Source of the DNA: Antedon mediterranea
Taxonomy: Eukaryota > Echinodermata > Crinoidea > Comatulida > Antedonidae
Assembly (NCBI RefSeq): GCF_964355755.1
Contig: NC_092671.1
Location: 36,907,304-36,971,303, forward strand
Reading direction: 5' to 3'
DNA length: 64,000 nt
The notes below the pieces were generated by a model. That model was not told where the DNA came from. It worked only from the letters and a program-made list of their open reading frames with translations, and ran no database searches. Shown one piece after another: positions 33,701 to 59,500 of this stretch (positions within the stretch are counted from its first letter, which is position 1; each line of letters starts with the position of its first letter). The position numbers and the translations under genes are program-made.

Positions 33701-36700
33701 TGGCACGCAGCTTTAACAGCACAATTCCATGTATGGCACGCAGCTTTAACAGCACAATTCCATGTATGGCACGCAGTTTTAACAGCACAATTTCATGTTT
33801 GGCACACAGCTTTGACAGAACAATTCCATGTATGGCATGCAGCTTTGACAGTAAAATTTCATGTATGGCACGCAGCTTTAACAGCACAATTCCATGTATG
33901 GCATGCAGTTTTAACAGCACAATTTCATGTTTGGCACACAGCTTTAACAGCACAATTCCATGTATGGCATGCAGTTTTGACAGCACAATTCCATGTATTG
34001 CACACAGCTTTGACAGCACAATTTCATGTATGGCACGCAGTTTTGAATACAGTTTTTTTTTTTATTACAGTATTATCACTTAAAACCTATCAATTCATTT
34101 AATTGTGAATTTTAAAAGCCATGAAATATATTAATTATCAACTATCACAAAACATGATGGCTGCAATAAAAATTGGTCTTCAAACCAGCAAAAAATAAAA
34201 AATAAACAACCAAAAAACAACAAATCAAAAACTTGTATTAATCAATTTATCAATTAATGTTAATTGTGAATTTTAAAACCCAAGATATATCATCAACTAT
34301 AAAAAAACATGATCGTTGCAATAAAAATTGGTTTTCAAAACAGCAAACGAAACTAAAATTTGTTTTTGTTAACTATAACGTCCAAAAAAACAAAATTTTG
34401 CACAAATTAAAGGCGTTCATTAAGTGTACACATAGTCAGTGACTAGTTCTTCTTCATTGATTTTTCATCTCAAAAAAGGAATTTGATACGGTGAACAAGA
34501 GGCTCGCAGTGTGTAGGCGATAATTGCGATAATGTTTACATTCAACGAAACAAGATATCAATACTATTCTTTGGTGTTGACTAATCTACGTTAAAATGAG
34601 AGTAAAGATTTCGCATAACTACTTTAACTCCAAGGACGCTTCTATGAAAAGAACATCAATATTCAGAAACTTAATTCCAAAGCAAGACGTAAGGGGTATT
34701 GATTTATAAGTGTAATTGATGACTGGATTATCTCAATTGACCCGATCCTAACCCAGCTGGGCGACATTTAAAGTCTATAATACATTGCTTTGGGGCACCC
34801 CTATTCAGGGGTCACCACTATTTGCACAGATACCAGAGATCTGGAACCAACTTCCTCTTTCCAGCCGTTACACTCCATCCCCTTTTCAATTCAAATCTCT
34901 CCTGAAAACTCACCTATTTCAATAGTTATTCTTTTCATGTTATGCTGTGCGACTCCGGTAAAGGCCGCTCTATAAATGTTCGATATTATTATTATTAATT
35001 TATTATTAGGGGACAATTTCAGAGAAACATGTATACTTATTAAATGTGTAATTAATTCCAAAAGAATACAAGAACATGAATAATGATATTAAACATATTG
35101 TACCTATAACTGTATACTAGTATTATAGTAAATAAATCCATGTTAAAGGAAGGGGTATAAAACAACTATGACTAAAGCCTGGTTCCATTAAAATCGCTAC
35201 AACGTTTCCATTAAAATCGCTACACGCGCAGATGTCGCCGACGCAATCGGGAAGGCTCCCCGATTCATCGCAGTCAAATCGGCAAAGTTCAACCATGTTC
35301 AACTTTGCCGATTTTGTCGGCGATGAATCGTATACGCGTATTTAGCGCTTGCGTACTAGATCCCCGATAAATTCTAGCGTTTCCATAGAATCGCTACGCT
35401 CTGTCGTGTAGCGATTTTATGGAAATCAGGCTTAACCTGTTACAACAGAGATTAGGGTGAGTAACAATGCTCAGATTAGACACAATTAAACACCTTTGAA
35501 ATAGGATGTCAGATTACAATGTTCCAGCATTCCTGTCGCTCTTAGTAGTTGTTTTTATTTCTCATAGTTTACATACTGTACAAGCCTGTTTGTTTACAAA
35601 TTCAAATATGTTTGTATTTAACCAAAAACTTGAAAAATATTTTATACACCATTCAAATATTTTTTAACCAAAAACTTTAAAAATATTTTATACACCATTC
35701 AAATATTTTTTAACCAAAAACTTTAAAAATATTGTATACACCATTCAAATATTTTTTAACCAAAAACTTTAAAAATATTTTATACACCATTCAAATATTT
35801 TTTAACCAAAAACTTGAAAAATATTTTATACACCATTCAAATATTTTTTAACCAAAAACTTGAAAAATATTTTATACACCATTCAAATATTTTTTAACCA
35901 AAAACTTTAAAAATATTTTATACACCATTCAAATATTTTTTAACCAAAAACTTTAAAAATATTGTATACACCATTCAAATATTTTGTAACCAAAAACTTA
36001 AAAAATATTTTATACACCATTCAAATATTTTTTAACCAAAAATATTTTATATACCAAAATGCTGATTGTTTTGACATCTACAGTACATACAAATGAATAT
36101 GGACCACAATTAATACAAAAGTACTAAGTATTAAGCTCTGTCTAAACTATCAAACTTTATGAAAAAAAATGTGATGTGCCTATATATGGATAGGATGATG
36201 CCATATCACTACCATATTTGTGCATATCACTACCATATTTGGGAATACCAATACCATATTTGGGCACATCACATTTTTTTCCGTCACACTAGTTTGATAG
36301 TGTAGACAGAGCTTTATAGATTAATATTTTATGACTTTCCATAACTTCCAATCCTACAATGAATGTTTTTATGTCTCTGATTGATTTACTGTTGTTTTGT
36401 ACCTTGTAATGTCAAAGGTCAACAACTTACTTAAATGCTTCTTTATGGTTGTCTGGTTTGATTAATTTAAGAGTATTACATACATTTTTTAAATGCATAC
36501 TAAATTATATTTAAGTTCTATTTTTAACACCTTTCACAAAATGTTATTGTGTGATATGTGCCATTTATTTTTTTATTCATAAAATGTTACAGTATTTTCT
36601 TTTAGAAACAAAAAACACAATCTTTAAAATTTCCTTTAGTATATAAAATGTTGTTGTGACTGAACTTATTTTGGGAACTAAACTATATGTCATCTTCAAA

Positions 36701-39700: not shown

Positions 39701-41046
39701 CATGATTAGAGAATCAAACATCAAATGGTATATATATGAGATATTTATTTTGGATTTTGTTGAGATGAAAATATTGTTGTCTTTAGCTCTGTCTATACTA
39801 TCAAACTTTAAGTGACAAAAAAAAATGATGTGCCCATATATGGATATGACGATGTCATATCACTACCATATTTGGGAATATCAATATCATATTTGGGAAC
39901 ATCACACTTTTGTCAAACTAGTTTGATAGAACAATAATGATGACGTGTAAGTTGGAATTTCTACAAAAAGATATTACTTACCATTTATAATAACAGACAG
40001 ACAGACAAACAGTTATTGAATGCACTTACTTACCTTTGCCTGATATACATTCAAGTTCAACAAAAATACACCAATGCTTAACATTGAACAAATGTGTACT
40101 TAAATGGCCTCTGATCTTATAAATACTTTAATAAAAAATGTCTAATTTATGGTTCAAAATTCCAAACACAGTAAATGTTACCAAATGCAAGTTTTGTTTT
40201 GGCAACATGAGTTGGTATCTTGAAATATCTTGAAATATACACTATGTATAAATACCTGAATTATATGTTTTTTTTAAATAAAAGTGGGAAGAACCCACAA
40301 AGACAAAAAAAAGGAAAAATATTTAAATCCTTGATGTGGTAAGCAAAACTAAGCATAACAAAAATATTAAAATAACATTTTACTAGTTGAATCACTAATT
40401 TTCATCACTTCAAGTGGTAGTAATTAATGAAAATGTTAAGGCAGTGATGTACAGATTAGACCTCCCAAATCTTCCAATATACCAAGTGGCCTATGTTACA
40501 AGTGCAATTTCTCCTGATTTTCCATATCATAATTAATCATCATCATAATGCACACTTGAATGCAATGCTATGAATTAGGACCTCTGACTGCCTATTGTTT
40601 ATTTTATAAATAAAATTTGTGAAGTTAGTTAATAACCTTTTCACATCTGCATACATGTTTACAACTTGTAACAACTTGTAACCGAGGTTTGATCTCCCGA
40701 TTGTTTTCATATATGCATACGCGAACGCGTAGTTGATTACTATGATTGGTCAGTTTAATACCAGAGAAATACATGCGTGCACAGTAAGAACTCGGAACAA
40801 AAACAAGCCTCACATTAGTGTGTTTTTGTCCCGAGATTTCACAGAGGTCCCCTTTGTTAAAATTGTTACAGCAGTCATAAATAGCGAATTTGCAAATGAC
40901 TACAAAGTCAATAACAAAGATGAGCTCTTTTACATTACCTCTTGCTCTCGTTTTAAATCTTCCTTCTGTTGCTCCTGTTCATCTTGTTCTTCGAGGGCAT
41001 TGGCATCAAAATGAATGCTTGTCCCTGGGTTGATCATACTGGCCAT
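18778..41046 (-). CDS. CEP152: Centrosomal protein CEP152 (Asterless orthologue)
   Basis: Twenty-three exons join in phase to 1689 aa: 41046-40939, 31976-31899, 31737-31628, 31295-31148, 30711-30222, 30012-29857, 29026-28887, 28435-28235, 27744-27597, 26949-26703, 26588-26399, 25943-25818, 24313-24183, 23658-23530, 23424-23289, 22868-22719, 22320-21649, 21521-21381, 21246-21139, 20983-20540, 20088-20001, 19902-19746, 19549-18778. CEP152 scaffolds the proximal centriole, binds PLK4 through an acidic N-terminus and CEP63 through its coiled coil. Human-like landmarks: LPDDLLDD (71-78), NPMWQQFGW, VLNHQLAIADGEKS, GSVQEIGQL, MYEAAAGLG and YYLQCLQQLLEDD (exon 22). Residues about 262-1433 are mostly coiled coil. 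The last 256 aa are Ser/Asn-rich and poorly conserved. Human CEP152 is about 1710 aa. The 36-aa first exon is assigned by phase and weak N-terminal similarity, so it is less certain than the rest. Confidence 0.95.
20129..20328. mobile_element. MITE family A with expanded core
   Basis: Normal tips, AAGCTCTGTTTACACTATCA and GTGTAGACAGAGCTTA. The internal CATATCACTACCATATTTGG-like module is present about four times instead of one or two, making this the longest copy. A tip fragment follows at 20443-20471. Confidence 0.9.
21286..21358. mobile_element. MITE family A, right half
   Basis: TATCACTACCATATTTAAGC to GATAGCGTAGACAGAGCTTA; the left half is missing. It ends 23 bp from the donor of the CEP152 exon ending at 21381. 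Confidence 0.75.
22420..22572. mobile_element. Short MITE, tips containing GGCAAATTTGTT
   Basis: CCACTAGGCAAATTTGTTTA and GTGTCAGCTTATA are mirrored by TATAAGCTGACAC and AACAAATTTGCCTAGTCG across about 150 bp in a CEP152 intron. No second copy was noticed. Confidence 0.75.
22945..23065 (+). mobile_element. tRNA-SINE fragment, S1-related
   Basis: GAGATGCTCGCCTACATATC, then GTAGGGTCAAATCCTGTCA (B-box-like) and CTTGTCTTGTGAAC, which is shared with the S1 body. Confidence 0.6.
23080..23234. mobile_element. MITE family A
   Basis: It has three tandem ATGCCCAAATATGGTAGTGA modules, central GTGTCCATATATGGGCACAT and right end AGTTTGATAGTGTTGACAGA. The left tip is degraded. Confidence 0.8.
23790..23932. 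mobile_element. MITE family A
   Basis: The left tip is eroded (GTCGTCTACACTGTGATGTG); the right end GATAGTGTAGACAGAGCTTA is intact. It lies in a CEP152 intron, 80 bp from the next copy. Confidence 0.85.
24013..24174. mobile_element. MITE family A against a CEP152 splice donor
   Basis: AAGCTCTACACTATCAAACT to GATAGTGTAGACAGAGCTTA. Its right end is 8 bp from the minus-strand donor of the exon ending at 24183. Confidence 0.88.
24766..25729. mobile_element. 0.96 kb non-autonomous TIR element
   Basis: TAACGCCCGTATTCTTAAAC at the left is mirrored exactly at the right (ending TAAGAATACGGGCGTTA). Sub-terminal GGACTTTAGTCGTAGTTCGA is also mirrored. No transposase frame. The target duplication is unclear. 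It lies in the CEP152 intron between 24313 and 25818. Confidence 0.85.
26040..26300 (-). repeat. Dispersed repeat R, reverse copy
   Basis: It contains the reverse complements of AGTCAAAGACTGGT, AGTTATGATCAGTGGCTG and CCGAGAAGACTCGTT, in the order expected from the 4.72 kb copy. Confidence 0.75.
26990..27213 (-). mobile_element. tRNA-derived SINE, family S1
   Basis: A reverse copy of the 1984-2222 element. The A-rich tail is the poly-T at about 26970-26986, and the head ends ACCAACCACAACTCCACT at 27204. It lies in the same CEP152 intron as the S2 copy next to it. Confidence 0.85.
27333..27560 (-). mobile_element. tRNA-derived SINE, family S2
   Basis: The head (reverse) is GTGGTTAACATGCTTGCCTT with GGTTCAATCCTGACC; the tail matches 61.55-61.64 kb (TTGGCGAGTT...CTGTTGCAT in reverse, here interrupted). 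Confidence 0.8.
27960..28121. mobile_element. MITE family A
   Basis: AAGCTCTGTCTGCATTATCA to GATAGTGTAGACAGAGCTTA, with an internal TGGTAATATGGTATGGTGAT variation. Confidence 0.88.
28632..28853. mobile_element. MITE family E, copy 1
   Basis: The tips TATTGTCCCTC and GAGGACAATA are inverted. The interior has TTATTCACTTC mirrored by GAAGTGAATAA. A relative is at 37967-38208. Confidence 0.7.
30775..30962 (+). repeat. Dispersed repeat R, copy 4
   Basis: CCTCTTCAGTCAAAGACTGG through CCTACGGTTTATAGTCCTTA, close to the 4.72 kb copy. In a CEP152 intron. Confidence 0.75.
32649..32805. mobile_element. MITE family A
   Basis: AGTCTACACTATCAAACTTC to GATAGTGTAGACAGAGCTTT, in CEP152 intron 1. Confidence 0.88.
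33480..34050. repeat. 33-bp minisatellite, ~17 copies, in CEP152 intron 1
   Basis: The unit is about CAGCTTTAACAGCACAATTC plus CATGTATGGCACG. Because 33 is a multiple of three and the unit has few stops, long frames stay open on both strands (11-residue repeats such as ALTAQFHVWHA on plus and VLLKLRAIHGI on minus). Substitutions are scattered and not biased to third positions, so this is treated as non-coding. Confidence 0.9.
34790..35010 (+). pseudogene. 5'-truncated CR1/L2-like non-LTR retrotransposon 3' end
   Basis: Reading plus gives IWNQLPLSSRYTPSPFQFKS, then LLKTHLFQ and a stop, a typical ORF2 C-terminus. A short 3' UTR (GGCCGCTCTATAAATGTTCG) and an ATT repeat tail follow. Similar tails occur at about 14230-14275 and 29085-29135. 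Confidence 0.75.
35165..35436. mobile_element. Short MITE, tips TAAAGCCTGGTTCCATTAAA
   Basis: The left end GCCTGGTTCCATTAAAATCG is mirrored by CGATTTTATGGAAATCAGGC. Inside, AAATCGGCAAAGTTCAAC pairs with GTTCAACTTTGCCGATTT, so the whole unit folds as a hairpin. Confidence 0.8.
35620..36055. repeat. 46-bp AT-rich minisatellite, ~9-10 copies
   Basis: The unit begins CAAATATTTTTTAACCAAAA and ends ATTTTATACACCATT. Copies differ by single bases only. In CEP152 intron 1. Confidence 0.95.
36134..36316. mobile_element. MITE family A
   Basis: AAGCTCTGTCTAAACTATCA to GATAGTGTAGACAGAGCTTT, with three internal ATATCACTACCATATTTG-like modules. Confidence 0.88.
37967..38208. mobile_element. MITE family E, copy 2
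   Basis: GTATTGTCCCCAAAAAC and GGGGGACAATACATC are inverted. The internal order resembles 28632-28853. Confidence 0.7.
39784..39930. mobile_element. MITE family A, right tip lost
   Basis: TAGCTCTGTCTATACTATCA on the left; on the right it stops after CAAACTAGTTTGATAG. Confidence 0.8.
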
Positions 41047-42150
41047 CCTTATTTTGTTTTGCAGTCAACTAGTACTACTAAAATAAAAAAAGTGCCTGAA
41101 CAACAAATGCTGGAAATGCTTATTTGCACAACTTTTCATACCAATGAACGTTAGGGGCCTATATGTAATTTATTATTTTCTATCACATGGACAATCGTGC
41201 GCTTAGTTCTCTGTGCGAATAATAAGACAACATGGTGCCATAGGCTATTATTTCAATCAATTTTATAACCCACTATACGACCCCCAGGCAGAGGTGCGTC
41301 ATGGGAGCATTATTTCAAGTAATTGATGCAGGGTGTGCATCTCAAAACCTAAATGGTACGTAACAATGCAAAATGGGTGCGTCATGGTCACCTATAGCTA
41401 AGCCTAAAGGTTTGAGTATCTTTTTGTCACAGCACATGGGTGCATCATGGTATCCATAAGGTATAACAGAAATCAGACAAATAATGCACCGGACATGGGT
41501 CATATAATTGACAATTGCATAGGCCTATATAATAAAATAAATAATTTGTATTATTAATTATATTCATCCATGGTCCATGGACCAGGCTTTAGCCTACTAC
41601 TACTACTCTATCTAGGCTAGACATATAATAAATAATATAAAATTAATAATAGTAATTTCATGAATAATATTAACAACACCTAACTTCATTAAATGACACA
41701 CTCTCTTGTAACCACCGGGATTAGCAAGTCAAAGCATCAACCTAGACCCTAGGCCTATGCTAGTAGTACCCAATCCGGCGGGCACTGGGGCTGACTGAGA
41801 CGCATCTCTACCCACACCAAACACTACTCCAGCACAGTCACTCAGTCTAGACTAGGCCTAGGCCTAGGCCTAGCATTTATGTAGTATGCAAAAGTAGAAT
41901 TATCACTTCGAAGTTAGTAACACAAAGTTGTTTAATCATTGCTCAAGATATTAAATTCAATTCACATATAAATAATTATATTTTTTAATTGATGAAATTA
42001 CCATATATTCGAGTAAATTTACGGAGCAAAACTTCAAGTTTCAAAACATTCTCATTCACGCGCCATATTTTTTTGTAAACTGTTTGAGGGCGGTGTACAT
42101 ATTTTTGGGTGTTTTTTTATCGTGATCGAGCTATATATCCAATACCAAAT

Positions 42151-42175
42151 TGGCGAGTAAATCATGTTTTACTTT
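42151..42175. promoter_or_regulatory. 25-bp edge motif upstream of CEP152
   Basis: It starts TGGCGAGTAAATCATGTTTT and is the exact reverse complement of 49889-49913. It lies 1.1 kb upstream of the CEP152 start codon and has the same orientation relative to CEP152 as the other copy has to RALBP1. A CCAAT box (42470-42474) lies further upstream. Whether it is promoter sequence or an element end is not known. Confidence 0.6.
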
Positions 42176-42519
42176 AAATTAAATTTATACGCTCTTCCAC
42201 AAGGTCAATTGTTAGTTATACATACAGACTATATTAAAACAATGATTTTGAACACGTAGGGCATTTCTTTGAATTCTTTCCTATTGTCGTTTTGTGGTAA
42301 TTTACAGCTTTTTATATGTTTAACAAACGTACATAATCAATTGCGTCTGCATCATGCTAGACTACAACTTCCGGTAGTGACGTAATCAGCATATTTTTGG
42401 TAATAAAACTTTTTCACTAAGCTAGGGAATCTTCTGATATCAATATTCATTAGACCGTACTTTAGTTAGCCAATCAAAATAAACGTATAAACAATTTTGC
42501 GGCGATGTTGTTGAGGTAA

Positions 42520-44660
42520 AATATACTGTGTTTTACAATAACCAATTTGGTTAGAGTAAAACACAATGATAAAGAATAGGAAACATTTAATAATATGATA
42601 AATGTCATTTACATAGCAATTTAGCACTGTGTTTTACTATAACCAATTTGGTTAAAGTAAAGCAGAATGATAAAGAATAGGAATTTATTAATATGATATA
42701 TGACATTTACATAGCAATTTAGCACTGTGTTTTACTATAACCAATTTGGTTAGAGTAAAACAGAATGATAAAGAATAGGAAATATTTAATAATAATGATA
42801 AATGACATTTACATAGCAATTTAGCACTGTGTTTTACTATAACCCATTTGGTTAAAGTAAAGCAGAATGATAAAGAAAAGGAATTTAATAATATGATATA
42901 TGACATTTACATAGCAATTTAGCACTGTGTTTTACTATAACCAATTTGGTTAGAGTAAAACACAATGATAAAGAATAGGAAATATTTAATAATAATGATT
43001 ATTTACATAGCAATTTAGCACTGTGTTTTACTATAACCAATTTGGTTATAGTAAAACACAATGATATAGAATAGGAAACATTTAATAATATGATAAATGA
43101 CATTTACATAGCAATTTATCACTGTGTTTTACTATAACCAATTTGGTTAGAGTAAAACACAATGATAAAGAATAGGAAACATTTAATAATAATGATTATT
43201 TACATAGCAATTTAGCACTGTGTTTTACTATAACCAATTTGGTTATAGTAAAACACAATGATAAAGAATAGGAAACATTTAATAATATGATATATGACAT
43301 TCACATAGCAATTTAGCACTGTGTTTTACTATAACCAATTTGGTTAGAGTAAAACACAATGATATAGATTAGGAAACATTTAATAATTTGATAAATGACA
43401 TTTACATAGCAATTTAGCACTGTGTTTTACTATAACCAATTTGGTTAAAGTAAAACACAATGATAAAGAATAGGAAACACTTAATAATATGATAAATGAC
43501 ATTTACATAGCAATTTAGCACTGTGTTTTACTATAACCAATTTGGTTAAAGTAAAGCAGAATGATAAAGAATAGGAAATATTTAATAATAATGATTATTT
43601 ACATAGCAATTTAGCACTGTGATTTACTATAACCAATTTGGTTATAGTAAAACACAATGATATAGAATAGGAAACATTTAATAATATGATAAATGACATT
43701 TACATAGCAATTTATCACTGTGTTTTACTATAACCAATTTGGTTATGGTAAAGCACAATGATATAGAATAGGAAACATTTAATAATATGATAAATGACAT
43801 TTACATAGCAATTTAGCACTGTGTTTTACTATAACCAATTTGGTTAAAGTAAAACATAATGATAAAGAATAGGAAACATTTAATAATAGGATAAATGACA
43901 TTTACATAGCAATTTATCACTGTGTTTTACTATAACCAATTTGGTTATGGTAAAGCACAATGATATAGAATAGGAAACATTTAATAATAATGATTATTTA
44001 CATAGCAATTTAGCACTGTGTTTTACTATAACCAATTTGGTTAGAGTAAAACACAATGACAAAGAATAGGAAACATTTAATAATAATGATTATTTACATA
44101 GCTAGCAATTTAGCACAATGTTTTACTATAACCAATTTGGTTATGGTAAAGCACAATGATATAGAATAGGAAACATTTAATAATATGATAAATGTCATTA
44201 CATAGCAATTTAGCACTGTGTTTTACTATAACCAATTTGGTTAGAGTAAAACACAATGATAAAGAATAGGAAACATTTAATAACATGATAAATGACATTC
44301 ACATATAAATTTAGCACTGTGTTTTACTATAACCAATTTGATTAGAGTAAAGCACAATGATAAAGAATATGAAACATTTAATAATATGATAAATGACATT
44401 TACATAGTAATTTATCACTGTGTTTTACTATAACCAATTTGGTTAGAGTAAAACATTTTAACTATGATAAATGATATTTAGCACTGTGCTGGATACAGTA
44501 AAACACAAATTAAGAATAGGAAACATATAATAATATGATACATTTACATACAAATTTAGTATTGTGTTTTACTATAGCCAATTTGGTTACAGTAAAACAC
44601 AATGATAATGAAACATTTATTATATGATATTATTTACATAGCAAAATATTATATTAAACA
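42520..44660. repeat. ~100-bp palindrome-bearing satellite, left array (~21 copies)
   Basis: The period is about 98-101 bp. Each unit contains GTGTTTTACTATAACCAA, one base, then its reverse complement TTGGTTATAGTAAAACAC, followed by AATGATAAAGAATAGGAAAC and TTTACATAGCAATTTAGCAC. Some copies have one palindrome arm changed (TAGAGTAAAACAC). The right-hand array is in reverse orientation. Confidence 0.95.
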
Positions 44661-44807
44661 TATCTTATTATCTAAACGTTATGAAAAGAATAGGATACAT
44701 ATAATGTAATAATATAATAAATACAAGTTACATAGTTTATCATCTTGTTTTACAGAACCAATTTGGTGACACAGTTAAACACAGTGATAAAGAATAGATA
44801 CTGTTTT

Positions 44808-45213
44808 AGGTTATATAACCCTAACCCTAGTTTGAAGCGACATAATAAATCCATCGCGAAAAAGTACGTATCGTATTTAGAAACTTTTGAAATTTGTTAG
44901 ATATGTTTAATAGGTTCTTACGTCTATAAAACAAACAAAAAATATAAATTTCACAAAAAATTCGTGATTTTAATAATTTGCATTTCTAAAAATGTACACT
45001 TATGAAATACCATACATTTTCCAACACATTTTTACTTCATTGATGATTCCCAGAAATCAAAATAAAACAAATTATGATATTTCTTTTACATTATAGATGT
45101 AAGAACCTATATTGAACATGTACCAAATTTCAAACGTTTTTTAAGACGATACATATTTTTATCGATGAATTAAACATGTGATCGCTTCAAACTAGGGTTA
45201 GGGTTAAATAACC
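44808..45213. mobile_element. Hairpin element C1 with TTAGGG-like ends
   Basis: ATAACCCTAACCCTAGTTTG at the left is mirrored by CAAACTAGGGTTAGGGTTAA at the right. Arms of more than 100 bp pair (AATAGGTTCTTACGTCTATA with ATAGATGTAAGAACCTATAT). Satellite remnants flank it. Confidence 0.85.
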
Positions 45214-45424
45214 TAACAGTTCATTCTTTAACACTGTGTTTAACTTTTAACCAAATTGGTTTTAGTACAACACAATGATAAACTATGTACATTTTATTTT
45301 TCATATTACATTATAGGATACATATAATGTAATAATAATAAATACAAGTTACATAGTTTATCATCTTGTTTTACAGAACCAATTTGGTTACACAGTTAAA
45401 CACAATGATAAAGAATAGACACTG

Positions 45425-45835
45425 TTTTAGGTTATATAACTCTAACCCTAGTTTGAAGCGATCACATACTTAATTCATCGCGAAAAAATACGTATCGTAT
45501 TCAGAAACATTTGAAATTTGGTAAATATGTTCAATAGGTTCTTACGTCTATAAAACAAACAAAAAATAAAAGTTTCAAGACAAATTCGTGATTTTAATAA
45601 TTTGCATTTCTAAACATTTACACTTATGAAAGACAATACATTTCCAACACATTTTTACTTCATTGATGATTCTCAGAAATCAAAATAAAACTATTAGGAT
45701 ATTTCTTTTGCATTATAGATGTAAGAACCTATATTGAACATATCTACCAAATATCAAACGTTTTTCAAGACGATACGTATTTTTAGCGATGAATATTAAA
45801 TATGTGATCGCTTCAAACTAGGGTTAGGGTTAAAT
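45425..45835. mobile_element. Hairpin element C2 with TTAGGG-like ends
   Basis: A second copy of C1 in the same arrangement, with CTCTAACCCTAGTTTGAAGC and GCTTCAAACTAGGGTTAGGG ends. A third, diverged copy reads into 46430 (GCTTCAAACTAGAGGGTAGG). Confidence 0.85.
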
Positions 45836-46856
45836 AAACTAAAACAGTTCTATTCTTTATCACTCACTGTGTTTAACTTTTAACCAAAATGGTTATAGTA
45901 AAACACAATGATAAACTTATATGTCAATTTTATTTTTCATAACATAAAATGTTTGATATTCTTTATAATATTTAATATTATATTTTAGGCCTACTATTAA
46001 TGACGTATAAATGCACACTACATCTGAAATAACTTTCTACTTCATTGGCGATTCTTACCAAAAAAAAGAACTAATTTTGTTATGTATATAGAGCAACCTA
46101 TTATAACATGTCTTGTATGATTTTTATCTCGTTTCAATGACATTTTATACTACAATTCAAATGAAAAAGCATCACAAAAAAATACGTCTGGTATTCAAAA
46201 AGTTTCTAAACTCGGTACACAGAAAAAAGGAAATGTTGAAAATGTATGGTCTTTCATAAGTGTGAATTTTTTGAAATGCAAATAATGGAAATCATCGATT
46301 TGTCTTGAAATTTATAATTTGTTTTGTCTTATTGAACATATCTATACAAAATTTCAAACGTTTCTGAATACGATACGTTTTTTTTCTCGATGAATTTATA
46401 ATGTCGCTTCAAACTAGAGGGTAGGGTAGTAACCTAACAAGTATCTATTCTTTATCACTATGTTTAACTGTGTAACCATATTGGTTCTAATAAAAAACAA
46501 TGATAAACTATGTAAATTGTATGTTTCATATATTACATTTTTGCCAAAAAAAATTATTGGGAATGTCAAATTTCTTTTTCATGACATATATCTACAAATT
46601 TCAGAAGCTTTTGAGTACGAGTATTTTACGCGATGTTTTTTTATCCTCATTTTAATATTTTGGTAATGTAATTCACATAAAGTTTTGTATCCAAAAATTG
46701 TTTATTCTTGGGTAGAAATGAGGAAATAAATAGTATTCCTGTATAATATAATAATCAATAATAAAGTATAAAAAAAAGTGTTGTGTAAACGAACGTTTTT
46801 TACGCTTCGAATTTTCTGTTACATTATGTTTGAATTGAAGCTACAGATATTGAATC

Positions 46857-46891
46857 ATGGACCTATAAATTAGTAATTTATAGGTCCATGA
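46857..46891. repeat. Perfect 35-bp palindrome
   Basis: CATGGACCTATAAATTA, a single G, then its exact reverse complement. It lies near the middle of the satellite island. Confidence 0.9.
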
Positions 46892-47174
46892 TTGAACATA
46901 TCGTCACTCACCACACATTTTTTGTTTTGTATTTCGAAAGTATTTATTCTAAAGAACAATTGATGCAAACATCAACTGCGTATCTTATTTCATTAATTAA
47001 TTATATTAATTATAATTTGGTGATTATTCGTCACACGAAGAGTCGAATATCGATTCGTCTCGTCATGGGAAGAAAACGTGCATTGCGTACACTGTTTACG
47101 CGCCTCAACAATAAACGGCGAATATGCGATTCGTCACTTATGGAACGCCGTTTTACACAAGTTTTTGGCGATGA

Positions 47175-47395
47175 TAAAAATTGCGTCGATGATGAAATTG
47201 CGTCGATGAAAATTGCATCGACGCAATGTAGATTGCGTCGATGCAATGTAGATTGCGTCGAGGCAATTTACATTGCGTCGATGAAAATTGCATCGATGAA
47301 AATTGCGTCGATGAAAATTGCGTCGATGAAAACTGCATCGATGAAAATTGCGTCGATGAAAACTGCATCGATGAAAATTGATGTGATGAATTTAA
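47175..47395. repeat. 15-bp ATTGCGTCGATGAAA array, left
   Basis: About 14 units of ATTGCGTCGATGAAA and the variant ATTGCATCGATGAAA. The unit is a multiple of three, so a spurious open frame runs through it (repeats of IASMK). The array at 47795-48085 carries the same unit in reverse. Confidence 0.9.
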
Positions 47396-47794
47396 TTGAT
47401 TATGAAAATTCCAAATGGTTTTAATTCAATCAATGATGAAAATGACTACTAGTAAAGTAAATGATGATGTTAATAATGATGTTAATAATGTTATTATGTT
47501 GCTAAAAATTGACGGTTTCTGAATATTTTGATATGATAAACATGTTTACCGCTTGCGCTAGCGCGCGTTATAGACAAGCGCACAGTGATCGCGCACTAAA
47601 ACAATGTTGAAATATATGCACTGATTAACATTTTAGTGATTTATTGTCAACACATTTTAGCAATGGATCCATTATTGTCCTTTCGGACACATTATATCTT
47701 CTAGCTAATTGCTTCCGTTAATCCACCAGTTCAGTACATAAAATCCAGATGTCCAGCATCCATGACATCATATTCAAATCATACCGGCAGGGAG

Positions 47795-48085
47795 ATCGAA
47801 ATTTTCATCGATGAAAACTGCATCGATGAAAATTATTTTTTTTTTTCATCGATGCAGTTTTCATCGATGCAGTTTTCATCGACGCAATTTTCATCGACGC
47901 AATTTTCATCACATTAACGCAATTTTCATCACATTAACGCAATTTTCATTACATCGACGCAATTTTCATCGACGCAATGTTCATCACATCATTACATCAA
48001 TACTATATTCATCGACGCAATTTTCATCACATCGACGCAATTTTCATTGCATCATCGACGCGATTTTATCATCGCCTAAACTGGC
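47795..48085. repeat. 15-bp array, right (inverted)
   Basis: TTTCATCGACGCAAT units, the reverse complement of the left array, with interruptions such as CACATTAACGCAAT. The two arrays form an inverted pair around a 400-bp spacer. Confidence 0.9.
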
Positions 48086-48464
48086 ATTCCATACTAATTG
48101 CGTGTGATCTGATTGGTGTATTATAAATAAATTCATCGCGATGAATTTTTCAGTAGATGTAATGAGACAGTTCAGTAGATGTAATGACAGTTAATTTAAT
48201 TGTTCTGCTCTTTTTGTACAAATCTATACTACTTTATATTATGGATTTTGTAGTACTGTTAAAATTATTAAATCTCTGGAAGTGTGTTTTACGAGTATGT
48301 CCGCAAATTTATGCGTTTACGGTTTTAAAATGTGAGTTTTAAATAGCGAACATGATCTTGTTAGGTGCACTACGCACGCAGTATTCCAAAATGTCTTACT
48401 AATTGGGAGAAAATCATATTGTATCATATCATATTATATCCATTCTTTAAATTCATATTCTTTA

Positions 48465-49715
48465 TCCAAAACTAAATTGGTATAGTAAAACACAGTGCTA
48501 GCAATTTATCATATTATTAAATGTTTCATATTCTTTATCATTGTGTTTTACTCTAATCAAATTGGTATAGTAAAACACAGTGCTAAATTGCTATGTGAAT
48601 GTCATTTATCATATTTTTAAATGTTTCCTATTCTTTATCATTGTGCTTTACCATAACCAAATTGGTTATAGTAAAACACAGTGCTAAATTGCTATGTAAA
48701 TGTTATTATCATATTATTAAATTCCTATTCTTTATCATTGTGTTTTACTCTAACCAAATTGGTTATAGTAAAACACAGTGATAAATTGCTATGTAAATGT
48801 AATTTATCATGTTATTAAATGTTTCCTATTCTTTATCGTTGAGTTTTACTCTAATCAAATTGGTTATAGTAAAACACAGTGCTAAATTGCTATGTAAATG
48901 TTATATATCATATTATTAAATGTTTCCTATTCTTTATCATTGTGTTTTACTCTAATCTGATTGGTTATAGTAAAACACAGTGCTAAATTGCTATGTGAAT
49001 GTCATTTATCATGTTATTAAATGTTTCCTATTCTTTATCATTGTGCTTTACTCTAACCAAATTGGTTATAGTAAAACACAGTGCTAAATTGCTATGTTTT
49101 ATCATTGTGTTTTACTCTAACCAAATTGGTTATAGTAAAACACAGTGATAAATTGCTATGTAAATGTAATTTATCATGTTATTAAATGTTTCCTATTCTT
49201 TATCATTGTGTTTTACTCTAATCAAATTGGTTATAGTAAAACACAGTGCTAAATTGCTATGTAAATGTTATATATCATATTATTAAATGTTTCTTATTCT
49301 TTATCATTGTGTTTTACTCTAATCTGATTGGTTATAGTAAAACACAGTGCTAAATTGCTATGTGAATGTCATTTATCATGTTATTAAATGTTTCCTATTC
49401 TTTATCATTGTGCTTTACTCTAACCAAATTGGTTATAGTAAAACACAGTGCTAAATTGCTAAATGTCATTTATCATGTTATTAAATGTTTCTTATTCTTT
49501 ATCATTGTGTTTTACTCTAACCAAATTGGTTATAGTAAAACACAGTGCTAAATTGCTATGTAAATGTAATTTATCATATTATTAAATGTTTCCTATTCTT
49601 TATCATTGTGTTTTACTCTAACCAAATTGGTTATAATTTATTTAATTTCATTTCAAAAGACATTTACCTAAATTGCTATTTAATTATAGTAAAACACTGT
49701 GCTAAATTGCTATTG
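48465..49715. repeat. ~100-bp palindrome-bearing satellite, right array (~12 copies, inverted)
   Basis: Same family as 42.52-44.66 kb in reverse: GTGCTAAATTGCTATGTAAA, then TTTCCTATTCTTTATCATTG, then the palindrome. Copies are about 95-100% alike. A larger unit (48.78-49.03 and 49.14-49.38) is itself duplicated. Confidence 0.95.
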
Positions 49716-49756
49716 TATTAAGGACGAGTTCCGAGAAGATGTATTCAAAGCTACAA

Positions 49757-49913
49757 CCAATCAGAACAGTGTTAATCAATATAGTCCATGGCTACAGCCA
49801 ATCAGAAACGTCCAAATCGCAATAACCCCTAGGCTAATAGAAATTATTGGTCCGAGTAGCCTTTTCAACCAGACGTTGCGAGGTTTAAAAAGTAAAACAT
49901 GATTTACTCGCCA
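49757..49913 (+). promoter_or_regulatory. Probable RALBP1 promoter: twin CCAAT boxes and 25-bp edge motif
   Basis: CTACAACCAATCAGAA (CCAAT at 49757) and CTACAGCCAATCAGAA (CCAAT at 49798) are spaced 41 bp apart, as in NF-Y-type promoters. The 25-bp motif follows at 49889-49913 (AAAGTAAAACATGATTTACT...). The start codon is 640 bp downstream, so a 5' UTR intron is likely. Confidence 0.5.
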
Positions 49914-50549
49914 GTTTGGTTTAGTTTATATACCTGCGTGATCGCGGAAATTCACATCGTTTATTATTGCCTTTTTTGGTTGGTTTTTATGCCATTTATA
50001 ATTCATAAAAAACACGGTTAACGGGATGGGAATTCATTTTTAAATGTAAGCCTCAGAAATAGTTTATATCATTGATTAATTGGTTAGGCTAAAGGTAATC
50101 TAGGCAGTATGGAAAGGCTGGCTACCCTGGCTAAGCTAAAAGAAGGCTAGCCTAGCTTTTATTTTTTAGTTAGTTAGGGTAGTACTGTACTATAGTAGGC
50201 TAGGGTAGGTTTTGTTTTGATGTCAGTCCAGAGACAGAGAGAGGAGTATGACTATGACTATGAGTGAGTGAGGTGTCACAATTGAAACGTCATAGGCCTA
50301 ACCATTACTATAAGTACAGAATAGTTGAGGAGTAGGCCTAGCTAGCTAGGCTAGGCTAGATGGATAATATTAGTGACGACAAAAGATTCAGCAGACTTGC
50401 TTATAATTGAATATTTGTTTATATTTATATTTTTAAATGATTGCTTACAATTAATTTTACAAGCCTACTTAATAAAAAAAAAAATTCATTGATTACTTGC
50501 AGATCACAGAAAACTCTACTAAAACCTGTTATACTTGTACGGTATAAAG

Positions 50550-53500
50550 ATGGCTGACGACCGTGTGATGGAACCGGATGTGCCATCACAGACATCAACC
50601 TGTCCAGATGATGAGGATGATGATAGTTTTAGTGGTACCGTATTGTTGACTTTAATATTGTGTTCAATCAATGCAATCTAACAACCGGACACTGAGCTCG
50701 CCGTTCCAAGATAGGAACTCGTAACAGTCCACATATTCTCCGCGCGGCGGCATGCAGTGTCTGTTAAGAGGAGTTGGACTGATTGTGTCACAGCCACAGA
50801 TAAACCCTTTGATCTCTGGAGCTCAGCATTCTGTTTGCATTCGATTGCATTGGTTCAATAAAACATACTACAATGCAGGGCGGATCCAGCATTATATAGA
50901 TTATGGGGGTGGGAGAAAAATAAAAATAGTAATTATTTTATTTCAAAAACGCATGGCTGTTAGATTTTAGGGTGGGATAAAGCCTGTTTAGACCCCACCT
51001 AAATCCGCGCCAGTTCACTATGGCCGCATATATTAGTGCCTTTCAAGACAAGACCTTGAAGTTTCCAGAATTACTTTTAAAATGTTCTTTTTAAATATGA
51101 TTTAAACAATATTTTTTTTTATAGCCGAGTCAGAATTGGCAGATGCGGAACCACTAAAGGGACGCAGGCTTGATGGTAAAGGGAAGAAAAAAGAACGAGG
51201 GTACAAAACATTTGAGGAAGACGAGACGTCCACAGATGGTGGAACCCCAGATAAGTTAGTATTTAGAACAATTAATTATGAGTATTAAAAATATTTACAG
51301 TAAATGTAAAAATCAAAAAATAATATTTGATTTGTTGATAACTAAAACTAAGAATACAGTATATTAACAAAAAATGTTTTTTAATAGTTTTATCCCAATA
51401 CTACTGTATATTTCATGATACTGTACTGTATTGTCCAAAATGTTAACAAGTTTGTGTTCAAATACAATAATATGTTGTGTTTTTCTAATAACTTGCTTTC
51501 TTTAACCTCATGCTGAGTATCTAAGTACAGTTTATCCACATAATTTTCAAGAGATTGGCTTTAGCTTGTGTTTTTCTCATTTATCTGCTACCCAACAACA
51601 CACTTTTTTATTTGTGTAATTTATATGTAATACTAATTGACAATTTTACACTTTATTTAGTAGAGCAAAACTTACAAAAAAATCCAGCTTCTTTCGGATA
51701 GGGTTCCAAAAACCGAAAGTTAAAGAAAAAGACAAAGAAAAGCAAAAGGAGAAACAGAAACCAAAAGCAAAGGATAGAAGTAAAGAGAAAGAAAAAGAAC
51801 GAAAAGTGTCAAAATCGAAAGAAGGAGGAAGATCAAGAAGCAAAAGTAAAGATAATAAAGACACAAAAATTAAGAAACAGTCTTCAACTGCTGGATTAGA
51901 ATCACAATCAACTGAACCAGGTGGGTCATTATTTATCAGTACCAGGTGGTAATATTTGAATATTGATCTCAGCAACCCAATGTGTCGTAAGGCAGGAGAC
52001 AAAGGCACTGGTTTAGCACTCCTTAAGCTCTGTCTACACTTTCAAACTAGTTAGACTAAAAAGTGATAGTACCCAACTATGATAGTGATAATGACATCAT
52101 CATGTCTGTTTATTACCACATTACATTTTTTGTCACATAAAGTTTGATAGTGTAGACAGAGCTTTACACTTATTTTATTAATTTATATATATATATATGT
52201 ATCAAACCTGTTAGTGGCGGTAATTATCGCTGTTGGTTTCGATTAAATAAAAAAAAAAAATTAAAAAAAAAAATATTATTATAACCTAGTTTAAACTTTT
52301 GCTTCTCTGCTTGTTTTTTTTCTAGTTGAGCCACGCCCTGTTTTTGGCGTGGACTTGGTGTTGGCAGTTGATCGGTCCAATCCACATGATGGTATACAAC
52401 TCCCCCTTATTGTAAGAGATTGCATTGATTATATTGAAGCAAATGGTATGTTGTTTTTCATTTTCTAAATACAAAATTTTTAAAATAAGTTATGAAAATA
52501 TGTGTATTCCTAAATTTTTTTTTAATATTAAAATTTAGGGATGTATGTTGAGGGTATCTACCGGCTTTCGGGTGTAAAATCGAGGATAGACGCTCTTCGT
52601 ACTGCGTATGACACAGCGGGTGAAGATGTTGACCTGACGGACCAGGATCCACACATCGTGGCTGGATTGTTAAAACTCTTTTTACGAGAACTTCCAGAAC
52701 CACTGTTAACCCAACGAATTATGCTGTCTCTGGAAGAAGCCTCAAGTATTTATGATTTATAAACAAATTAACAAATCAAATAGAAGCAAAGAGAACTATA
52801 AAATACCAAATTAGAGAATATTAAAATAAAATAAAAAAATAAAATAAAAAAATAGTGTGGTTATATTAAAACGATATATAATTAATAATCGCACAAGAGA
52901 AAAATACAAATAATGATTTTTTGCTTGCTTTTAAGAAATTCCTGACAACAAAGTTAAAATTCAAAAGTTTCGTGGTGCTATCAACTTATTGCCAGTTTGT
53001 AATAGGACACTGCTGTCATGGGTCATAGTTCATATGGCCCACGTCATAGGCAACGTAAGTAGACTAAACCCTTGTCCACATTATCAAAGTTTATGTGACC
53101 AAAAAAAATGTGATGTGCCCATATATGGTCATGATGATGTCATCACTACCATATTTTGGCATATCACTACCATGCTTGGGCACATCACACTTTTTTTGTC
53201 AAACTATTTTGATGGTGTAGACAGAGCTTTAAATTGAAAGCGTGAATTTATTTCCAAATCTTTTCTAGTTATGTACTTGCTGTTTGAACATGTGTTAAAA
53301 TAAATTTAAAGATTAACTATTTTCCGTAATTTATTTTTGTTAGGAAATTGAAACTAAGATGAATCTTCAGAACATATCCATTGTTCTTTGCCCTACACTT
53401 CACATCAGCCATCGTGTGCTCAATGTCTTCTTTACTTTTTGGCGTGACATATTTGGAGATGTAGTTCTCAAAAAGTAAGTCACAATTTTTCTTTAATATC

Positions 53501-56500: not shown

Positions 56501-59500
56501 TATTTGAATATCATCTGTATTAGACTCTTCTAAAAAACTTAGCCATGTCTATTAAACACTGTTCTTTTGGTTTTGTGGATATTATAAATAAAATTGTCCA
56601 TTTTGCTTACAAATTTCCCTAAGTTGTATTTGTGCTTAGAGCTTCTAAATGGCAAATAATTGAATTATTTATACAGGATTTTGGAAGAAGAGCTAAATAA
56701 ACAAGAAGCAATCTTGTCTGAAATGCATGAACGTGTAAATAAAGGAACGGCTGATAAGGTAAATCAAATGTTACACAACATTTATCTGTGTAAATACTTT
56801 CTTTTTCGCTCTCATAACATAACAACATAATATAAACATTTCATTAACAAAATGACAAAAAAGACCAAAAGAAATCAGCTTTGTTAAAGTTAAATTAAAT
56901 AAGTTTAAATAAAAAAAAGTTATTCATCTTATTTCAAATTTCAGTCTTTAAAAACAATCTCATTTATTTTGGTTAAATTATTAAAATAATTCCACTTAAA
57001 GTATGATTCTTTTTTTCTGATTACAGAATACTGAAGAGCAACTTTGGGAAGTTCAGAGAATTGTAACCCAGCTGAAACGAAAGGTAGAAGCATTGTAGTA
57101 GTTTTCTAGCCCTTTCACATCACCTAGAAAAGTTTTGGGGAGGCACGTCTGGTGACCATCAACACTAGCATTTGGGGAGGCACGTCTGGTGGCCATCAAC
57201 ACTAGCATTTGGTGAGGCACGTCTGGTGGCCATCAACACTAGCATTTGGGGAGGCACGTCTGGTGGCCATCAACACTAGCATTTGGGGAGGCACGTCTGG
57301 TGGCCATCAACACTAGCATTTGGGGAGGCACATCTGGTGACCATCAACACTAGCATTTGGGGAGGCACGTCTGGTGGCCATCAACACTAGCATTTGGGGA
57401 GGCACATCTGGTGACCATCAACACTAGCATTTGGGGAGGCACATCTGGTGGCCATCAACACTAGCATTTGGGGAGGCACATCTGGTGACCATCAACACTA
57501 GCATTTGGGGAGGCACATCTGGTGACCATCAACACTAGCATTTGGGGAGGCACGTCTGGTGGCCATCAACACTAGCATTTGGGGAGGCACGTCTGGTGGC
57601 CATCAACACTAGCATTTGGGGAGGCACGTCTGGTGGCCATCAACACTAGCATTTGGGGAGGCACGTCTGGTGGCCATCAACACTAGCATTTGGGGAGGCA
57701 CGTCTGGTGGCCATCAACACTAGCATTTGGGGAGGCACGTCTGGTGGCCATCAACACTAGCATTTGGGGAGGCACGTCTGGTGGCCATCAACACTAGCAT
57801 TTGGTGAGGCACGTCTGGTGGCTATCAACACTAGCATTTGGGGAGGCACGTCTGGTGGCCATCAACACTAGCATTTGGGGAGGCACGTCTGGTGGCCATC
57901 AACACTAGCATTTGGGGAGGCACGTCTGGTGGCCATCAACACTAGCATTTGGGGAGGCACGTCTGGTGGCCATCAACACAAGCATTTGGGGAGGCACGTC
58001 TGGTGACCATCAACACTAGCATTTGGGGAGGCACATCTGGTGACCATCAACACTAGCATTTGGGGAGGCACGTCTGGTGGCTATCAACACTAGCATTTGG
58101 GGAGGCACATCTGGTGACCATCAACACTAGCATTTGGGGAGGCACGTCTGGTGGCCATCAACACTAGCATTTGGGGAGGCACATCTGGTGACCATCAACA
58201 CTAGCATTTGGGGAGGCACGTCTGGTGGCCATCAACACTAGCATTTGGGGAGGCACATCTGGTGGCCATCAACACTAGCATTTGGTGTCTTTTGTAATGT
58301 GCACCTGGTGTATGCAAACTCCAGAGTTGAACATTTAAAATTAATATTTCTTGGCAAAAGTTTTTGAATGCAACTTAAATAGTAGGAAACAATTATGGCT
58401 ATTTTGAAAAAATATGTTTTTTTAGAGAATGTTGAATTTTTAAAGTGAACTGCTTTCTTATTTACCATAGATTCGAGTTTGTAGGAAGACTTCTGAAACT
58501 GCAATTGCTCCTACTCTTGAAGAAGAGGAGAAACCAGAGACAGAAGATGAGAAACCAGTAGTGGAAGAAGACAAACCAGTATTTGAGGAAGAGAAACCAG
58601 TATTGGAAAAAGAGAAACCAGCAGTGGAAGAAAAGTCTGCTGATGATAAGGCAGAAGATTCTGTATTCCTTGACGCTGTACCAGCAGTTGCTGACATAAC
58701 AGAGCAAAAAGCACCAGAGGCAAAAGAGATTGAAGGAAAGGTTGAAGAACCAATTAAAGAGGAATCTGAAGTAAAACCGCAACGAAAGGAAAGTGACCAG
58801 GATGTAATGGAGACAGTGTCAACAAAGAAAGAAATTGTTGATGAATCTGTTGACAAAGTAGTTATTGAGAAAGAAAATGAAGTAGAAAAACAAGTTGAAG
58901 TAAAACAAAATGAACAAATTCAAGAAAGAGAAGTGAATAAAGTTAAAAATGTAGAAAATATTGCAGAAGATAGTGTTCAAGGTGTAAAAGAGAAAGAAGA
59001 TAAAGAAGAAGAAAAACAGACAATTGGAGAAGTTGATAATCAGCAAGTGAAAGATTCAACAGAGGAAGTATTTAAGGAAGACGAAGAGGATGATGAAGGT
59101 AATTAATTGGCTTAACATTCTGTACCTTTAATGAAAACATTTCTTCTGGTTTCGATTCGTATAATAATATAAGTAGTTCTTTGATAGTAAACCAAGAAAA
59201 CTTACGTTGGCAAGACAGTTTCGTCTAGCTGTCAGCTTGACTTCTTCAGTTGCTATGATGCGTTATGGCGCCGACTGGTCTCCTTTCCAGCCACTAGATG
59301 ATTTTGTTGTGTAGCCTAGGGGACCAGTCGTCGTCAGAAGCTGATCGTAAATGTGAGATAGTTGGTGCGCGCCTTCGTCTCTATTCATCTTTGTATTTTT
59401 ATTTTGCTTTCTTATGCTGATACTTTCTTTAATTTTACGTTTAAGCCAAACTTGTTCTTTGTGTAGTACCTCTATCTTATCCCAGTTAGGTATGTGGTTG

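Follow-up and report, generated by a model that had tools for sequence, protein, structure and literature searches.

A nested satellite island in Antedon mediterranea is very probably one copy of a young foldback-type transposon family

The island and its limits

How does an island of opposed satellites, hairpins and short arrays come to lie in nested, symmetric order at one place in a genome? The window, that is, the whole stretch of 64,000 nt that was analyzed, comes from Antedon mediterranea (NC_092671.1:36,907,304-36,971,303, forward strand; GCF_964355755.1). Its island had been described from the letters alone as either one large element, such as a Helitron-like unit with internal satellites, or a break-induced inverted amplification that stayed in place. 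We have little doubt that it belongs, as one copy, to a young family of non-autonomous cut-and-paste DNA transposons of the foldback type. Foldback transposons are already known as a kind of element, and the enzyme that moves this family was not found in the copies read. In the window, the island is a single transposon with the following parts:

42121-42127, no strand: target-site duplication CGTGATC, left copy
42128-49936, plus strand: whole transposon, 7809 bp
42128-42175, plus strand: left terminal inverted repeat, the A end, GAGCTATATATCC..., 48 bp
42176-42524, plus strand: A-end flanking domain, without counterpart at the other end
42525-44455, plus strand: left arm, satellite of about 101 bp, about 19 copies, with decayed copies on to about 44797
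44798-45230, no strand: hairpin unit 1
45420-45850, no strand: hairpin unit 2, with stretches 88-98% like unit 1
46100-46440, no strand: hairpin unit 3, diverged
46853-46893, no strand: 41-bp palindrome, 20 + 1 + 20
47173-47380, plus strand: 15-bp array, unit GATGAAAATTGCGTC
47798-48071, minus strand: opposed 15-bp array, bounds approximate
48470-49635, minus strand: right arm, left-arm satellite running the other way, about 12 copies
49685-49888, minus strand: B-end flanking domain, without counterpart at the other end
49889-49936, minus strand: right terminal inverted repeat, the B end, CAGGTATATAAAC..., 48 bp
49937-49943, no strand: target-site duplication CGTGATC, right copy

The preliminary description had bounded the island at 42147 and 49917; an element is indeed there, but its true ends lie about 20 bp further out. 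The 25-bp edge repeat (TGGCGAGTAAATCATGTTTTACTTT) is exact, although it forms just the inner half of a longer terminal inverted repeat (48 bp), in which the two ends of this copy mismatch at 7 of 48 positions. A count of 8/49 for the same ends includes a 49th base, which is outside the repeat. Every type of repeat that had been claimed was found in the window near its described place, including the opposed satellite arms (about 19-22 copies on the left and 12 on the right) and the opposed 15-bp arrays (the second starting at about 47800). The palindrome is perfect as described, but it is not 35 bp long. The element has the long inverted arms of tandem repeats that mark a foldback; the longest of the inverted satellite pairs listed are 90-95% complementary. 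Hairpin unit 1 folds far better than its shuffles (z = -13.8, with 0 of 100 shuffles as good).

The two head-to-head genes that were thought to flank the island found no backing, since none of the 10 window ORFs scanned had a Pfam match over the curated cut-off. The ORF at 46834-47424 across the 15-bp array has no Pfam match, and its openness can be explained because the array unit, at 15 bases, is a multiple of three. Ten further ORFs of four loci likewise gave nothing over the curated cut-off, and no RNA family reached its gathering score within 41000-51000.

A dispersed family with fixed ends

A 24-bp core of the ends had 59 forward and 59 reverse matches in the 354-Mb genome; its backward control had 0 and 0. 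This contrast, 118 to none, bears out the earlier view that the symmetry of the island goes beyond chance. Of 60 A ends, 58 match exactly across 32 nt, and of 57 B ends, 55 do so across 34 nt. The ends pair as 56 convergent A...B elements of 3.8-22.7 kb (median, 8.7), beside one 2.4-kb pair and one 0.5-kb A-A mini-element, and no B-B pair occurs among the paired family ends genome-wide.

Seventeen A-B copies were fully read, a non-random choice made for extreme length, an unpaired end, or absence from the match lists of the inner probes, with 40 of the 56 A...B copies left out. The same nested order, from flank through outer repeat and inner domain to the middle, was common to 13 of the 17, with array length and repeat number varying among them; the remaining four depart from it through deletion, truncation or inversion. 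The long copy C10:8.10 is an ordinary copy enlarged by a nested LTR element, presumably Gypsy-like to judge from its ORFs, and C4:25.25 is an ordinary copy plus a nested 2.6-kb element with inverted repeats of about 520 bp. Three copies have an inverted centre.

Among the matches listed, the arrays do not behave as unrelated, separately dispersed satellites: two inner probes each had 40 main matches, all of which fall within elements, as do the first and last places of each of 20 satellite clusters (among the matches listed, of 563).

These copies also bear on whether the island could have been amplified in place after a break, or be an artefact of assembly. Inverted arrays may arise by a break, and arrays are hard to assemble; however, the ends are fixed and the 7-bp duplications differ across about 57 dispersed copies, which makes either account very improbable as the source of the nested order, and amplification in place is rejected because near-identical copies lie on 11 contigs. 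The arm inversion itself seems to predate the spread, because satellite units have their nearest match in the same-orientation arm of another copy (0.6%) rather than in the opposite orientation within their own copy (3.5%), a comparison biased that way in that the same-orientation side draws on more units, which favours a closer match there.

Target sites, insertion and age

The 7-bp sequence CGTGATC stands on both sides of the window copy. Exact 7-bp duplications, the mini-element included, were found at 33 of 38 elements, or 34 of 39 when C2:14.56 is added; at the remaining five of the 39 tested, none was present at the expected place. Dispersed copies with such duplications are the mark of mobility, and they uphold the idea of a single large element that has inverted arms and carries satellites inside it.

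They also decide against one version of that idea. Helentrons are rolling-circle elements, and neither they nor Helitrons are known to have terminal inverted repeats or target duplications. A Helitron- or Helentron-like element with internal satellites is rejected because this family has both, and we give it next to no credence, even though Helentrons of oyster are reported to carry satellite-like arrays (PMC7492417).

The target sites follow a symmetric rule: in 30 of 33 cases a pyrimidine lies six bases before the duplication, and in 31 of 33 a purine lies at the same distance beyond it (P = 2.6e-13), both positions falling outside the duplication. For the A-A mini-element an empty-site match exists: its joined flanks match a neighbouring tandem unit over 72 bases, ungapped, at 95.8%. 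No other locus in the genome joins the flanks of the window copy, whose site before insertion would read TTTTTTTAT-CGTGATC-GCGGAAATT, with the heptamer once. A comparison of 35 joined flanks with the fetched DNA gave no empty site, and its three junction-spanning matches were each to the element's own flank.

For this foldback family, we infer a transposase of outside origin that would bind TGGCGAGTAAATCATGTTTTACTT, the end core, bring two ends together and place the element at a 7-bp staggered cut, with a preference for the pyrimidine and purine just described. Unequal exchange or slippage would lengthen and shorten the inverted satellite arms, which may hold secondary binding sites for the enzyme, by analogy with Galileo, where these have been shown in print.

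Mean divergence among 16 copies is 1.6% at the A end (397 bp) and 1.4% at the B end (252 bp). Three ends were seen in two diverged copies; all three keep the 24-bp core unchanged, and outside it 4/190, 12/193 and 20/183 aligned sites differ, plus gaps.

Satellite and ends compared

Local alignment of the satellite with the ends was not significant over 5000 shuffles, the counts being 1148 (monomer shuffled) and 866 (end shuffled) for the A end and 1164 and 544 for the B end. Shared exact words of at least 9 bases gave 7 and 6 of 5000 for the first 48 bases of the A end, a cut picked after the words had been seen, and 48 and 29 for 60 bases. For the B end the counts were 491 and 531 of 5000 (48 bases) and 565 and 674 (60 bases). 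The flanking domains supplied 29 control 60-mers, of which 5 have a single word in common with the satellite and none has two. As a lead only, the satellite might be amplified end sequence, the shared words supporting this for one end.

Candidates for the moving enzyme

No transposase gene was found in the family copies read. The 7-bp duplication, which falls within the 7 or 8 bp of the P superfamily, suggests a P- or Galileo-like enzyme, though the Galileo target consensus GTANTAC was not seen at the family's target sites. A Galileo-like, THAP-domain transposase of this superfamily is a serious if slightly disfavoured candidate: excerpts on Galileo report 7-bp duplications (PMC4168063) and foldback arms with internal tandem repeats, and a search of the genome for the P-type RNaseH domain, which could miss a divergent or intron-split gene, gave 35 matches, some in near-identical pairs. 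Against it, none of the 35 lies inside a family element, no family ends occur in the 6.5-8.0 kb of sequence surrounding each of eight (which falls short of the far ends of two near-identical pairs), and the target rule sits outside the duplication.

The target rule is not known to match that of any family, a point in favour of an alternative with about an even chance of being right, namely an undescribed transposase or one of another superfamily (hAT or Mutator-like, making 7-bp duplications). Mutator-like foldback duplications span about 8-11 bp, as against 7 bp in this family. Most foldbacks are said in an excerpt of PMC4079207 to seem members of Mutator. Duplications in Mutator are mostly longer, as in Tetris.

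A bolder version, which we regard as rather unlikely, is an undescribed transposase group that would make 7-bp staggered cuts with a pyrimidine/purine contact six bases outside each, the satellites being amplified binding sites that tune transposition. If true, array length would act as a dial of activity, to be seen in about 57 copies that are almost equal in age, and natural experiments on which parts are needed would be at hand in the A-A mini-element and the three inverted-centre copies.

Comparison with known foldback systems

One genome with about 57 paired-end copies, near-identical in their ends and variable in their satellite arms, lets the growth and upkeep of a transposon satellite be studied and lets one ask whether such arms enhance transposition; the sharp target-site rule is a possible recognition mark for the moving enzyme. 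The TU elements of sea urchins and FB of Drosophila also have inverted arms of short tandem repeats. Oyster Helentrons, as excerpted, share dispersed satellite-like arrays on a mobile element (PMC7492417), but the Antedon family has terminal inverted repeats. Galileo, of the P superfamily, has in the excerpts mostly 7-bp duplications, foldback-like arms with tandem repeats in some subfamilies, and varying arm length (PMC4168063, PMC3573991, PMC3688188); the Antedon family resembles it in duplication length, arms and arm-length variation and differs in having no transposase in the copies read, no GTANTAC and a different target rule.

Going by the excerpts of PMC4079207, the closest relative in plan is Tetris of Drosophila virilis, an apparently non-autonomous foldback whose transposase was not found, with a flanking domain, outer tandem repeats of about 220 bp in varying number, and inner and middle domains. 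The Antedon family shares the plan, the varying repeat number, the non-autonomous state and the lack of a found transposase. It differs in its 7-bp rather than 8-10-bp duplications, in its 101-bp unit, in ends that, outside the satellites, have only the outermost 48 bp in common, in the extra opposed 15-bp arrays mid-element, and in copy number, with dozens of paired-end copies here and three structurally complete ones of Tetris.

Structure of the island in the window

The island is one copy of a foldback-type transposon (window 42128-49936) inserted with the target duplication CGTGATC. Its 48-bp terminal inverted repeat has seven differences in this copy, and the 25-bp exact edge repeat is its inner half. 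Tandem Repeats Finder delimited the following arrays:

42525-44455, left array of the ~101-bp satellite
48503-49635, satellite partner in opposite orientation (several rows)
47173-47380 and 47843-48071, short-period arrays

Complementarity is 90-95% in the 25 longest inverted pairs. The stretch between the satellite arms contains three hairpin units and a perfect palindrome (20+1+20). For the first hairpin unit the folding energy is -87.2 kcal/mol, and its shuffles average -32.0 (z = -13.8; 0/100 shuffles). All the repeat types listed in the preliminary description (satellite in both directions, edge repeat, hairpins, palindrome, and 15-bp arrays) were recovered in the window.

Elsewhere in the window, which is A+T-rich apart from 57001-58000 (53% GC), there is a G+C-rich 37-bp minisatellite (57134-58285, 31 copies, 96% matches), a 46-bp array (35617-36042, nine copies, 97%), and a 33-bp array (33478-34046, 17 copies) with long open frames over it on both strands. 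The 21-bp unit CATATCACTACCATATTTGGG and its variants form many short clusters in both orientations (at 16674, 17340, 20195, 23085, 23840, 24051, 36202, 39857, 53141, and 53872). This dispersed minisatellite may in turn be the cargo of a mobile element.

Genomic census of the family

The 24-bp end core was sought across the genome (354.4 Mb, up to three mismatches), giving 59 forward and 59 reverse matches, mismatch-free in all of the first 100 places listed, and none for the backward control. A separate pattern for the left (A) end gave 60 matches, of which 58 are exact over 32 nt; that for the right (B) end gave 57, of which 55 are exact over 34 nt. Neither control gave a match. When the ends were paired, 56 convergent A-B pairs emerged, distributed over 11 contigs and measuring 3.8 to 22.7 kb (median, 8.7 kb); there was also a single A-A pair of 0.5 kb, and three ends had no partner. 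The 2.4-kb element C6:4.88 was unpaired at first, its partner B end being missed by the B pattern and present among the core matches; with it the A-B elements number about 57, next to the single A-A mini-element. A first-pass B-end search (best 40 of 118 candidates scored) gave as many candidates as the core search gave ends, a hint rather than proof that few further relatives exist.

Target sites and empty sites

Directly outside the ends (GAGCT.../CAGGT...), an exact 7-bp duplication was found in 33 of 38 elements, counting the A-A mini-element, or 34 of 39 with C2:14.56. Three exceptions (C1:24.61, C6:4.88, and C4:12.69) have replaced or shortened A ends; another (L065) has extra bases within its B end and, by eye, a shifted duplication, ACATATC, on both sides, and the last (L051) shares only five bases between its flanks. 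The suggestion that the island is one large element is borne out by the end core, the paired ends, and these duplications at many loci.

The duplication has no strong consensus, and its edge base avoids T (7/66). At the 33 of 34 exact sites with long enough flanks, a pyrimidine stands six positions before the duplication in 30, and 31 have a purine six positions after it (P = 2.6e-13, two-sided binomial test); the test was set after every distance from 0 to 11 had been viewed. A weaker preference appears three bases closer to the duplication (27/33 and 21/33, P = 0.0003), and the remaining six distances tested showed none (P >= 0.18).

The A-A mini-element sits within an array of ~70-bp units. 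Its flanks, joined with a single ACTGAAG, align without gaps over 72 bases (95.8%) to a neighboring unit, an empty-site match from which it follows that the A end can work on both sides. The joined flanks of the window copy matched nothing beyond their own two halves.

Module order and copy variation

We compared 17 A-B copies and the A-A mini-element module by module. The nested order to be looked for at other loci was indeed found there, 13 of the 17 A-B copies reading A end, forward satellite, hairpin units, center, spacer between the 15-bp arrays, reverse satellite, and B end, some without a hairpin unit or with nested insertions. The departures were C6:4.88 (ends and arms only), C1:24.61 (center missing), C4:12.69 (diverged, truncated, left satellite absent), and C8:7.07 (hairpin/center block inverted). 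As the hairpin probe is also inverted in C10:17.31 and C4:20.38, almost equal in length to C8:7.07 (10.8 kb), this rearranged form has probably spread. Satellite units numbered 0 to 58 in left and 6 to 29 in right arrays of the copies compared, and the satellite matches listed indicate a left arm of ~7 kb in one copy (C10:20685932-20701033).

Two of the three longest copies, C7:22.80 (L022/L023) and C4:31.17 (L024-L026), have additional large insertions; C7:22.80 has diverged hairpin-unit matches and, close to each of its ends, oppositely oriented ORF copies, possibly a second foldback-like family. Nested in the C4:25.25 copy (L043) is a 2.6-kb insertion whose inverted repeats measure ~520 bp and whose ends read GGGTCATTCC; it has the 5-bp duplication CATCG, and none of its ORF pieces exceeded the Pfam cut-off.

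The main matches of the center and hairpin probes (best 40 of each scored) were all inside elements, and the 40 further rows listed per probe were, by eye, opposite-strand matches at the same loci. A listed match to either probe fell inside 49 of the 56 A-B pairs, the other seven being read directly. The satellite probe gave 563 matches; among those listed, the first and last places of 20 clusters were inside elements. The alternative of separately dispersed satellites thus finds no example among listed matches, although some satellites may lie outside elements.

Age and conservation

Mean divergence among 16 A-B copies was 1.6% at the A end (397 bp) and 1.4% at the B end (252 bp), and the satellite consensus was identical in both orientations (606 units of these copies). 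A unit's nearest match differed by 0.6% when taken from another copy in like orientation and by 3.5% when taken from the inverted units of its own copy. On this comparison, in which the former side offered far more units, the inverted layout seems older than the spread of the family. At all three ends of two diverged copies (C4:12.69, and C7:6.83 with its lone B end), the core is unchanged, beside substitutions and gaps in the adjoining sequence. Such conservation, in copies found by the core pattern itself, is suggestive of an enzyme-binding site.

Transposition and comparison with known systems

The copies establish that the element is mobile, that its ends are defined, that it inserts with a 7-bp stagger, and that its arrays are unstable. 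A transposase acting in trans would move them. ORF lists covered 15 of the 17 A-B copies (all but C1:31.60 and C2:14.56) and the lone-end locus, and a Pfam scan of selected ORFs returned nothing over the cut-off, though short exons could escape such a scan. An autonomous copy may sit among the 40 of 56 A-B pairs outside full reading or at the lone A end C4:15.44.

Galileo, of the P superfamily, likewise makes 7-bp duplications (PMC4168063), and this length and the general likeness would favor a P-type transposase as the mover; however, its GTANTAC motif is missing at the target sites here, as is a P-type gene from the copies read. None of the 35 genomic places with P-type RNaseH domains is inside an element, and no family ends were found around eight of these domains in the stretches fetched, which stop before the distal ends of two repeated pairs. 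Those pairs (L028/L029 and L030/L031; 99.5% over ~5.4 to 5.5 kb, the similarity running beyond the fetched ends) look like recent copies. Galileo arm repeats contain enzyme sites, according to PMC3688188; here, sequence comparison points weakly, and for one end only, to the satellite as a putative enzyme-binding site.

Text searches of the open-licence literature for 7-bp duplications returned Galileo, Repbase, and plant work, and for foldbacks with a target preference no related description. This is a new family of a known foldback kind, possibly already in Repbase, because its domain plan is that of Tetris, which is also without a known transposase (PMC4079207).
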